Assembly: GCF_017875275.1 (NCBI RefSeq) | Contig: NZ_JAGGML010000001.1 | Span: forward strand, 1,054,001-1,118,000 | DNA length: 64,000 nt | Source: Xanthobacter flavus | Lineage (GTDB): Bacteria > Pseudomonadota > Alphaproteobacteria > Rhizobiales > Xanthobacteraceae | Reading direction: 5' to 3' | Shown here: positions 53,816 to 62,604 of the stretch, piece by piece | Numbering within the stretch: position 1 is the stretch's first letter | Layout: every line of letters begins with the position of its first letter | Program-made: the position numbers and the translations under genes | The notes under the pieces: model-generated | Told to the model about the DNA's origin: nothing | The model's input: only the letters and a program-made list of their open reading frames with translations | Database searches by the model: none

Positions 53816-54045
53816 TGATCTCCCCCCTCCTGAAAGCCCGAACCGCCGGTCTCTTCCCGAGACGCCGCTGGCTCGCGACATTCCGCCACACCCTCTTGGC
53901 GGCTTGCTTCCACGCCCCATTTTTCCGCTCACTGGTCCGGGCCCCTCTGGCGCAGATTTTCTGCGTGATGTCGGATCAGGCGTGATTTGCGCGCTCCGTC
54001 CAGAGGCCCCATGGTTTCCTTCCCATTGCCGAGCCCCGTGTCAGC

Positions 54046-60201: not shown

Positions 60202-60522
60202 TGCATAGTCCGGATGGAGATGTCCGGGGGGCCGGCGGACCCTTGTCCCAGAGGCATGCACAGGGAAGGCGGCTGAACTGTGACCCCTGCCCTGACCTGC
60301 AGGCGGCACCAGCGAGCCGTCCTGCCGGCCCGATCGCGGCAGACCCTGTCGGCAGAGGCCGGGGCGACGCCGCGCGAATCCGCATGGGTCATTGACTTTA
60401 CGGCGGTTTGTCACGATCTTTCCAGCCTACCCTGAGAGGCGGGTTGCGCAGACGACGGCGAGGACCGGCGCCGCGGCCCGTTTACCTCGGGGGATCGTGT
60501 TGATTGCCAAGGAGCTGAAGCC
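60202..60522. other. Divergent region between the DUF3108 gene and infC
   Basis: About 320 bp. TTGACT at 60392-60397 could be a -35 for infC, with GATCTT (60415-60420) a poor -10 at 17-bp spacing. AAGGAG at 60509-60514 is the infC ribosome site. No gene. Confidence 0.4.
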
Positions 60523-61059
60523 ATTCGCCGCCCTATGAGACCCGTCGCGCCGGAGAAGGATGGACCGCGCGTCAATGAGGAAATCCGCATCCGCGAAGTC
60601 CAACTGATCGACCAGGACGGTCAGAACCGCGGCGTGGTAGCAATCCGCGATGCGCTCACGCTGGCGCAGGAAGCCGGGCTCGATCTCGTCGAGATTTCCC
60701 CCAATTCCGCGCCCCCCGTCTGCAAGATCCTCGATTACGGCCGCTTCAAGTACCAGAACCAGAAGAAGGCCAGCGAGGCGCGCAAGAAGCAGAAGGTGGT
60801 CGAGGTCAAGGAGATCAAGCTCCGCCCGGGCATCGACGACCACGACTACGACGTGAAGATGCGGGCCATGCAGCGCTTCTTCGAGGAAGGCGACAAGGTG
60901 AAGGTGACCCTGCGCTTCCGTGGTCGCGAGATGGCGCATCAGGACATCGGCTACAAGCTGCTCCAGAAGCTCAAGGAAGATGTGTCGCCGGTGGCCAAGG
61001 TCGAGGCCGAGCCCATGCTCGAGGGCCGGCAGATGATCATGATTCTCGCCCCCCGCTGA
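60523..61059 (+). CDS. infC: Translation initiation factor IF-3 (probable AUU start)
   Basis: IF-3 of 178 aa, binding 30S subunits and checking start codons. N-domain: INEEIR-type start ([19 protein letters not shown]), then [16 protein letters not shown] variant [20 protein letters not shown]; linker with [21 protein letters not shown]-domain [30 protein letters not shown]. The strong ribosome site AAGGAG (60509-60514) lies 8 nt before ATT at 60523, which reads [16 protein letters not shown], matching the common MRRP start of relatives. The first ATG (60535) is 20 nt away. An AUU start is the known autoregulatory feature of infC in E. coli. Followed by a terminator. Confidence 0.93.
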
Positions 61060-61086
61060 CCCGGGCCTTGAGGACGGAATAAAGAA

Positions 61087-61115
61087 AAAGCCCGGCGCAG
61101 CGCGCCGGGCTTTTC
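61087..61115 (+). terminator. Rho-independent terminator of infC
   Basis: AAAA GCCCGGCGC (61091-61099), AGC loop, GCGCCGGGC (61103-61111), TTTT. It cuts infC off from rpmI-rplT. Confidence 0.9.
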
Positions 61116-61183: not shown

Positions 61184-61867
61184 TCACGGGCAGGGGTGCT
61201 GGAGCCCGTCGTAGCCGGTGTAGGTACCGGTGTTCGGGTTGTACGACCGGAAGCGCGACATGCAATACGCCACCGCATCGTTCGTATAGACCGGCTCGGC
61301 ATTGGCCGCCGCCACCGCGCCGAGCGCCAGTCCGCTGGCGACTCCGAGGGCGATCCACGCGCCGGTGTTGTTGTAATAGCCCCAGCCCCAGCCGGGACGA
61401 TACCAGCCCCAGCCCGGACGCCACGGTCCCGGCCCCCAAGCGCCCGGCGGCGGGCGCCAGCCTGGACGGCCCCAACCCGGTCCGCCGGGTCCCCAGCCGG
61501 GACGGCCAGGACCCCAACCGGGACGGCCCGCATAGACCGGACGGCCGACATAGCCGGGACGACCGACGAAACCGGGGCGACCCACATAGCCCGGACGACC
61601 GACGAAGCCGGGACGGCCGACATAACCGGGGCGCCCCACATAGCCGGGACGGACGCCCACCCGGGGGCCGCCCATGCGCACGGCCCCGACCCGCGGTCCG
61701 CCGCCGCCGCGCCAGGCGACGGTTTCAACCGCGCCGGCATTGGCAAGCGCGGGATTGGCAAGGCCAAGGCGCAGCGCTTGTGCATTCGCGACGGGAACCG
61801 AAAGCGAAAGCATGCCGCCGGCGACCGCAGCCGCTGCAAACAATGCCACCCTTCTTGTGCCGAACAT
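61184..61867 (-). CDS. BA14K family protein with hexapeptide repeats
   Basis: Secreted or membrane-tethered protein of 227 aa. Signal peptide (VALFAAAAVAGGMLSLSVPV, cleaved after ANA near residue 28). A repeat tract of RPG(Y/F)VG hexapeptides (about residues 72-115) is followed by Gly/Trp/Pro repeats (GRPGWGPG), then a hydrophobic segment (WIALGVASGLALGAVAAANA) and the conserved C-terminus AYCMSRFRSYNPNTGTYTGY ending HPCP. That last block is the BA14K signature, first known as a Brucella 14-kDa immunoreactive protein. GGGAG lies 8 nt before the ATG. It diverges from a paralogue at 62065. Confidence 0.83.
   Translation of the reverse strand: MFGTRRVALFAAAAVAGGMLSLSVPVANAQALRLGLANPALANAGAVETVAWRGGGGPRVGAVRMGGPRVGVRPGYVGRPGYVGRPGFVGRPGYVGRPGFVGRPGYVGRPVYAGRPGWGPGRPGWGPGGPGWGRPGWRPPPGAWGPGPWRPGWGWYRPGWGWGYYNNTGAWIALGVASGLALGAVAAANAEPVYTNDAVAYCMSRFRSYNPNTGTYTGYDGLQHPCP
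61527..61653 (-). repeat. 18-bp tandem repeats coding RPG(Y/F)VG
   Basis: About seven 18-bp units inside the BA14K gene. Y and F units alternate, giving a 36-bp higher-order period (for example GTCGGCCGTCCCGGCT on the coding strand). The terminal unit is degenerate (RPVYAG). Confidence 0.75.
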
Positions 61868-62064
61868 GATCTTCACTCCCTCAACACTTTCCATCTTCAG
61901 CGCTCTTTGTGTCGAATGTTTCGCGGACGTCGCGGAACTTGCGGCTGGAAAGCGGCGAAGTGGTGCATTCAATCGTTTGCGTGCCGCCGCCAATCACTCG
62001 TGCGTGACCAGAGGCATCCTTGCATCGCCCGGCGGCGTTGACCGGGAATAACAAGGAGTTCGGT

Positions 62065-62604
62065 ATGCATCATCTGTTGCGCAAGACCTTCCGGCGGATC
62101 ACCGTCGGCCTCACCTCCGCGGCCATCGTCGTTTCCAGCGTCGGTGTGGCCACTGTGGCGACGGCTCCGGCCGCATCGGCGCAGGCGTTGCGGGCCGGTG
62201 CCGCATCCATGAAGGTCCAGGCCGCGGCACCCGACGAGGTGCAGGTGCGGCGTGGCGGGCCAAGGCGCGGACCGGGATACGTCAAGCGAGGGCCGGTCCG
62301 TGGACCGGGCTATGGCCGCCCCGGATACGGCCGCCCCGGCTGGCATGGGCCGCGCCCCGGCTATCACGCGCGCTGGGGACGCCCCTATTGGCGGAACGGC
62401 AGCTGGTACTACCGCAATAACAACGGCGCGTGGATCGCGGCCGGCATCGCCGGCCTCGCCCTCGGCGCGGCGGCGGGTGCGGCGGCGGCCAACTCGAACA
62501 GCGGTAGCAACGCGGTCGCCTATTGCTCGCAACGCTTCCGCTCCTACAACCCCGCCACCGGCACCTACACCGGCTATGACGGGCTGCAGCATCCCTGCCC
62601 CTGA
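62065..62604 (+). CDS. BA14K family protein (paralogue)
   Basis: A 179-aa paralogue with AAGGAG before the ATG. Signal peptide (VGLTSAAIVVSSVGVATVAT, cleaved after ASA near residue 37). A Gly/Arg/Pro-rich middle (RRGPGYVKRGPVRGPGYGRP), YWRNGSWYYRNNNGAWIA, a hydrophobic Ala/Gly helix, and C-terminus AYCSQRFRSYNPATGTYTGY ending HPCP, nearly identical to the neighbour at 61184. The two are divergent and probably arose by inverted duplication. Cell-surface role likely; function not established. Confidence 0.83.
   Translation: MHHLLRKTFRRITVGLTSAAIVVSSVGVATVATAPAASAQALRAGAASMKVQAAAPDEVQVRRGGPRRGPGYVKRGPVRGPGYGRPGYGRPGWHGPRPGYHARWGRPYWRNGSWYYRNNNGAWIAAGIAGLALGAAAGAAAANSNSGSNAVAYCSQRFRSYNPATGTYTGYDGLQHPCP

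Follow-up and report, generated by a model that had tools for sequence, protein, structure and literature searches.

The infC gene of Xanthobacter flavus very probably begins at AUU, a member of a start-codon class conserved in Alphaproteobacteria

Translation initiation factor IF3 discriminates against start codons that mismatch the initiator anticodon at the third base. The gene for this factor, infC, raises a question in Xanthobacter flavus. We analyzed a 64,000-nucleotide stretch of its genome (the window), in which the infC frame, when restricted to ATG, GTG and TTG starts, opens at 60535 only and ends at 61059. Four codons ahead of that ATG stands an ATT behind a Shine-Dalgarno (SD) sequence. 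Does translation begin at this ATT, and would IF3 in that case repress its own synthesis, as in Escherichia coli?

The start site of infC and its surroundings

The identity of the gene is secure. Its product is a TIGR00168 equivalog match (255 bits), carries PF05198 and PF00707, both above cut-off, and matches the IF-3 chain 8jsg_A (E 2.7e-61); with one match across the genome, infC is single-copy. The initial annotation had placed AAGGAG at 60509-60514, 8 nt ahead of ATT 60523, with the first ATG at 60535, and direct reading of the letters reproduces this exactly. The spacer occupies 60515-60522, and the distance from AAGGAG to the ATG is 20 nt. The infC start thus combines a codon that mismatches the initiator anticodon at its third base only with a strong SD, which pairs at -7.7 kcal/mol with respect to the ATT and at +0.2 kcal/mol with respect to the ATG; the ATG of rplT, also within the window, has an SD pairing at -8.0 kcal/mol. 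The chance background for such a start was taken from the 64 kb window. There, 97 of 3041 AUH triplets (AUU, AUC or AUA) have an SD at least as strong as that of the infC ATT, and two of 220 open reading frames of at least 100 aa, infC among them, hold an in-frame AUH with an SD of -7.7 kcal/mol or better before the first NUG. ATC 28046 also passed this mechanical test; its signal-peptide-like reading frame begins at a later ATG, and the match was put down to chance. Within the window the pattern is suggestive and not decisive; it is the conservation in relatives that makes it convincing.

Table 1. Features of the infC locus (positions within the window)
Feature	Position	Strand	Evidence
Probable -35 element of the infC promoter, TTGACT	60392-60397	+	conservation
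Probable -10 element, GATCTT, 17 nt past the -35 element	60415-60420	+	conservation
Shine-Dalgarno sequence, AAGGAG	60509-60514	+	read directly; pairing energy -7.7 kcal/mol
infC, translation initiation factor IF-3, 178 aa from AUU	60523-61059 including stop	+	TIGR00168, PF05198, PF00707
AUU start codon of infC (very probable)	60523-60525	+	sequence, SD, conservation in relatives
Codons 2-4 (R-R-P; CGC CGC CCT)	60526-60534	+	protein-level conservation, synonymous changes
First in-frame ATG (codon 5)	60535-60537	+	without SD
Intrinsic-terminator-like hairpin 3' of infC	61086-61114	both	terminator scan

Fifteen upstream regions were aligned, 13 from the genus and two from the family, and TTGACTT and CGATCTT are unchanged in all of them. 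A generic sigma-70 scan reported no promoter at infC, so the promoter call rests on this conservation; the candidate -10 element matches TATAAT at three of six positions. The terminator scan found two terminators, both of them the hairpin behind infC, once per strand, against a mean of 0.7 in shuffled sequence. The leader (60427-60570) showed no unusual folding, its fold being weaker than those of its shuffles (z +2.2), and thus gives no evidence for an RNA switch. At the Rfam gathering score nothing was found at infC, and the single hit in the window was a terC RNA (RF03067, 49.4 bits) at 53929-53983 on the forward strand. It precedes a diacylglycerol-kinase-like reading frame (54046) and then a TerC-like membrane protein (55015), both named from the look of their sequences.

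A DUF3108 gene lies upstream of infC on the opposite strand, and two genes of BA14K type, at 61187-61870 (reverse strand) and 62065-62601 (forward strand), stand between infC and rpmI-rplT. The first of these carries a run of GYVGRPG-like repeats.

Start codons of infC in relatives

IF3 was sought in four sets of genomes: the organism with its relatives (31 genomes, 29 with a match), an order sample (61, 58 with a match), a class sample (115, 110 with a match) and a phylum sample (120, 119 with a match). The first three sets amount to 192 genomes, of which 183 matched, and all 183 infC genes were read; the phylum sample supplied 65 additional genomes, 61 of them outside Alphaproteobacteria. 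The candidate list held seven start codons, three of them AUH. A stricter rule placed the start at least three codons ahead of the domain anchor, with an SD of -4.5 kcal/mol or better, a threshold chosen after a first look at the data.

The candidate with the best SD (n = 248) was ATA in 87 genes, ATT in 73, ATC in 71, ATG in six, GTG and TTG in five each, and none in one. Under the stricter rule, 164 of the 183 alphaproteobacterial genes have an AUH codon behind an SD. The order sample (n = 75) holds 74 AUH starts (48 ATT, 15 ATC and 11 ATA) and one GTG; the remaining class sample (n = 108) has ATA in 64, ATC in 18, ATT in eight and 18 genes off the rule. ATT stands at the start in all 13 genomes of the genus, the organism's own included, and in one genome of a neighbouring genus (G014). 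Among Pseudomonadota outside the class, 59 of 61 genes are AUH. We also read 80 named loci, nearly all titled Alphaproteobacteria, of which 76 are AUH (40 ATA, 30 ATT, six ATC), AUU occurring under Rhizobium- and Bradyrhizobium-like names and in Brevundimonas, and AUA mostly under Rhodobacter- and Sphingomonas-like names. The other four comprise an ATC with a weak SD, two loci called CTG, in one of which (L336) the conserved place is taken by ATA, and one locus without a candidate. The apparent infC start in Roseomonas sp. GC11 (L286) is a CUG preceded by an SD; a Neoroseomonas relative (L288) has AUA. The named locus nearest to the window gene is that of Aquabacter cavernae, at 91% identity. 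In Marinicella sp. W31 (L267), called as having none, an SD and an ATT are present and the frame is broken before the IF3 domain (2459-2560, in this assembly).

The same preference emerges when the codon is left out of the search. In a codon-blind profile of alphaproteobacterial infC, an in-frame AUH stands behind the SD in 22 of 74 places at 6 nt, 42 of 51 at 7 nt, 47 of 59 at 8 nt and 45 of 74 at 9 nt, and falls to 0-6% at 10-19 nt. NUG occupies three of 258 places at 6-9 nt; at 7-8 nt the figures are 89 of 110 for AUH and zero for NUG. As a control, rplT was found in 40 of the 138 loci given, and the stricter rule returned ATG in 35 of the 40 (33 with a strong SD, two with a weak one); of the other five, four are ATC ties with an adjacent ATG and one is the Marinicella locus. 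The median SD energy of the 164 AUH infC genes (-8.55 kcal/mol) is close to that of the 40 rplT genes (-8.25 kcal/mol), so infC has not merely been given a weak ribosome site.

The codons that follow the start behave as coding sequence. In the order sample, codons 2-4 mostly read R, R, P (or A, R, R): among 74 genes, codon 2 is R in 50 and A in 18, codon 3 is R in 71, and codon 4 is P in 50. These residues are written with 12, six and nine distinct codons, respectively, and without stops. Upstream of the start, stop codons occur at places -2, -3, -5 and -6 in some genomes of the sample, and the conserved elements of that region are the SD and, directly before the start, a common NCC (GCC, ACC or CCC, 48 of 74). 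A start at the ATG would leave the conservation of codons 2-4 unexplained, and the IF3 protein is accordingly predicted to start at or before codon 2.

A tree of 181 IF3 genes, a quick build with the start codon kept outside the data, implies that AUU, AUC and AUA replaced one another at least 27 times, versus five changes between AUH and another codon. AUG is absent among these 181 genes, though AUA to AUG is a single transition; the tree omits short loci and any gene whose SD is weak, and with them all alphaproteobacterial ATG cases.

On these comparisons, AUU, a rare initiation codon, very probably serves as the infC start in the window organism, as it does in E. coli. The AUU start proposed in the initial annotation is borne out by the conserved SD-AUH geometry, by the synonymous variation after the start and by an ATG that lacks an SD, and the alignment of upstream regions suggested there gave the ATT of the genus and the AUH of the class reported above. 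The MRRP N-terminus that it took to be common in alphaproteobacterial IF3 agrees with R-R-P as the usual form in the order sample. Its expectation that the start codon is kept in relatives holds for the AUH class and fails for ATT itself; relatives lacking ATT, which it named as a refutation, would misfire as a test, since many carry ATC or ATA and the conserved thing is AUH. The finding is correct, ordinary in kind and broader than first stated.

The exceptions are concentrated in small genomes. AUH behind an SD occurs in 138 of 141 alphaproteobacterial genomes of at least 2 Mb versus 26 of 42 smaller ones (138 against 3, and 26 against 16; Fisher p 2.6e-9, kinship ignored), so that 16 of the 19 off-rule genes are in genomes below 2 Mb, a pattern that is partly circular because the rule itself requires an SD. 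The SD is weak in nine of the 16, and the other seven offer a non-AUH candidate whose SD is stronger than -4.5 kcal/mol; loss of the SD is therefore only part of the story. ATG is the best candidate in seven of the 183 genes, all in genomes below 2 Mb (G095/L217, G132/L212, G169/L216, G175/L151, G180/L208, G187/L194 and G188/L193), and in five of the seven the SD is weaker than -4.5 kcal/mol. The three larger genomes differ from one another: in G066 a GTG with a strong SD occupies the conserved place; in G143 that place holds AUA, and a TTG upstream scores better by 0.2 kcal/mol; G177 has no start candidate. The two exceptions outside Alphaproteobacteria are a GTG (G194) and a gene with no candidate (G228).

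Other phyla were covered through records filed as plasmids, of which 22 were read out of 76 matched (7 Bacillota, 2 Actinomycetota, 2 Bacteroidota, 1 Fusobacteriota and 2 Cyanobacteriota among them), and the picture outside Pseudomonadota is correspondingly thin. In both Bacteroidota genes the annotated start is ATG and none of the AUH candidates has a good SD; the start is GTG in Paenibacillus polymyxa and ambiguous in Arthrobacter. AUH is the best candidate in the other six Bacillota, in Fusobacterium and in Nonomuraea. The plasmid genes of Azospirillum have AUA behind an SD in all five read (L340, L341 and L356-L358; 15 are listed), and those of Nostoc have AUC behind an SD in both (L354, L355). 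The N-terminus of the Azospirillum plasmid genes differs from that of the copy in A. brasilense BR 11026 (L285, on a 1.0 Mb contig, with AUA). The plasmid-borne infC genes of Azospirillum and Nostoc are probably second copies. Plasmid infC adjoins rpsU in L340 and L358.

Existing records annotate infC in different ways. One Sinorhizobium meliloti record and one from Vibrio give it an ATT start, and those of Falsirhodobacter and of three Azospirillum plasmids an ATA start; the annotated start lies downstream in two other Azospirillum plasmids, at an ATG, and in two Nostoc plasmids, at a TTG. That calling places the start four codons late, as was first supposed, is right for NUG-only callers and does not extend to all records. 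In this genome, NUG-only calling would drop four residues from the corrected IF3.

IF3 feedback and competing readings

We infer that ribosomes initiate at AUU 60523 in this organism, and we think it highly likely, on the comparative evidence, that infC is translated from this codon behind its strong SD under negative feedback by IF3 of the E. coli type. Autorepression would be the best reading of the window gene, as a known feedback rather than a new mechanism. AUU pairs with the initiator anticodon CAU at bases one and two and mismatches at the third, and this mismatch would lead IF3 itself to destabilize initiation. In E. coli, IF3 responds to just such a strong SD joined to a third-base mismatch. 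Initiation on the infC message would be poor while free IF3 is abundant and would rise as IF3 becomes scarce. Selection in the class would keep AU and a non-G base behind the SD, while the third base would drift. Codon discrimination by IF3 is treated in PMC5472188 and PMC10158994, and the latter states that more IF3 lowers the use of AUU with the CAU anticodon. Plasmid-borne infC genes keep the AUH class.

Three other readings were weighed. An AUU start that only holds IF3 synthesis at a low and steady level, with no IF3 feedback in the class, is unlikely; our literature searches found no experiment on IF3 autoregulation in Alphaproteobacteria, which favors this reading, but a low constant rate could be obtained instead by a weak SD or by GUG or UUG, whereas infC pairs an SD of rplT strength with codons of the class rejected by IF3, and their third base varies among U, C and A. 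The use of both starts, which would yield a full-length IF3 and another that lacks its first four residues, is distinctly improbable: an ATG four codons downstream is present in all 15 of the closest genomes aligned, yet it has no SD and is missing from 49 of the 74 order-sample genes. A start at ATG 60535, with ATT and AAGGAG coincidental, is scarcely credible, for although no common start codon precedes this ATG in the frame and 25 of the 74 genes have an ATG exactly four codons past the AUH start, it shares both of these weaknesses and has ahead of it the protein-conserved, stop-free codons 2-4.

With IF3 autorepression from AUU as the preferred reading of the window gene, a wider statement is plausible, if held with noticeably less confidence: in Alphaproteobacteria, selection would act on the infC start-codon class, with AUU, AUC and AUA interchanging behind a strong SD and AUG nearly shut out, and this constraint would have disappeared chiefly in reduced genomes, along with the SD in about half of them. 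The AUH starts of the plasmid-borne genes are what sensing of the total IF3 pool would predict. The infC starts would then form a class-wide record of IF3 autoregulation and of its abandonment. A textbook feedback loop would be extended to a whole class in which the codon class, and not the codon, is conserved; the drift among AUU, AUC and AUA together with the avoidance of AUG would serve as a comparative test of third-base discrimination by IF3, and the small-genome exceptions are places to look for its loss.

Comparison with known systems

The AUU start of E. coli infC and the autoregulation by IF3 are reportedly the work of Butler, Springer and Grunberg-Manago (1986, 1987). In E. coli K-12 the annotated start is ATT behind TTGGAGG, and two further E. 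coli records also have it at ATT; the window gene is alike in being an IF3 gene with a strong SD and an AUU start. The surroundings differ. In E. coli, infC sits between thrS and rpmI-rplT, whereas the window gene has the oppositely oriented DUF3108 gene upstream, a conserved promoter-like site of its own, a downstream hairpin, and two BA14K genes that separate it from rpmI. The thrS-infC-rpmI-rplT operon of E. coli is thus not found here, and infC appears to form a separate unit, unlike its E. coli counterpart.

A non-AUG start of infC is not new in kind, having been published for E. coli, Bacillus subtilis, Streptomyces, Staphylococcus aureus and Xanthomonas. Earlier work is also said to have named infC, and the extent to which the breadth of the pattern can count as new is limited accordingly. 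A term search of the article text of ribosome-profiling papers on Caulobacter (PMC4117421) and Sinorhizobium (PMC10117765) returned zero occurrences of infC. In Sinorhizobium meliloti Ak57 (CP090106), known from annotation, the start is given as ATT behind GAGGAG with the protein I(M)RRPFKAD... PMC5472188, PMC13009471, PMC1805508 and PMC5559785 give ATC for Streptomyces, AUA for S. aureus (by Ribo-Ret), AUU for B. subtilis and ATT for Xanthomonas (from peptides), and non-AUG infC starts or their autoregulation are also among the subjects of PMC1780047. These genes share the AUH class with the window gene and belong to other phyla or to another class. Among class-sample genes from orders other than that of the window, AUA is the commonest start (64 of 108).
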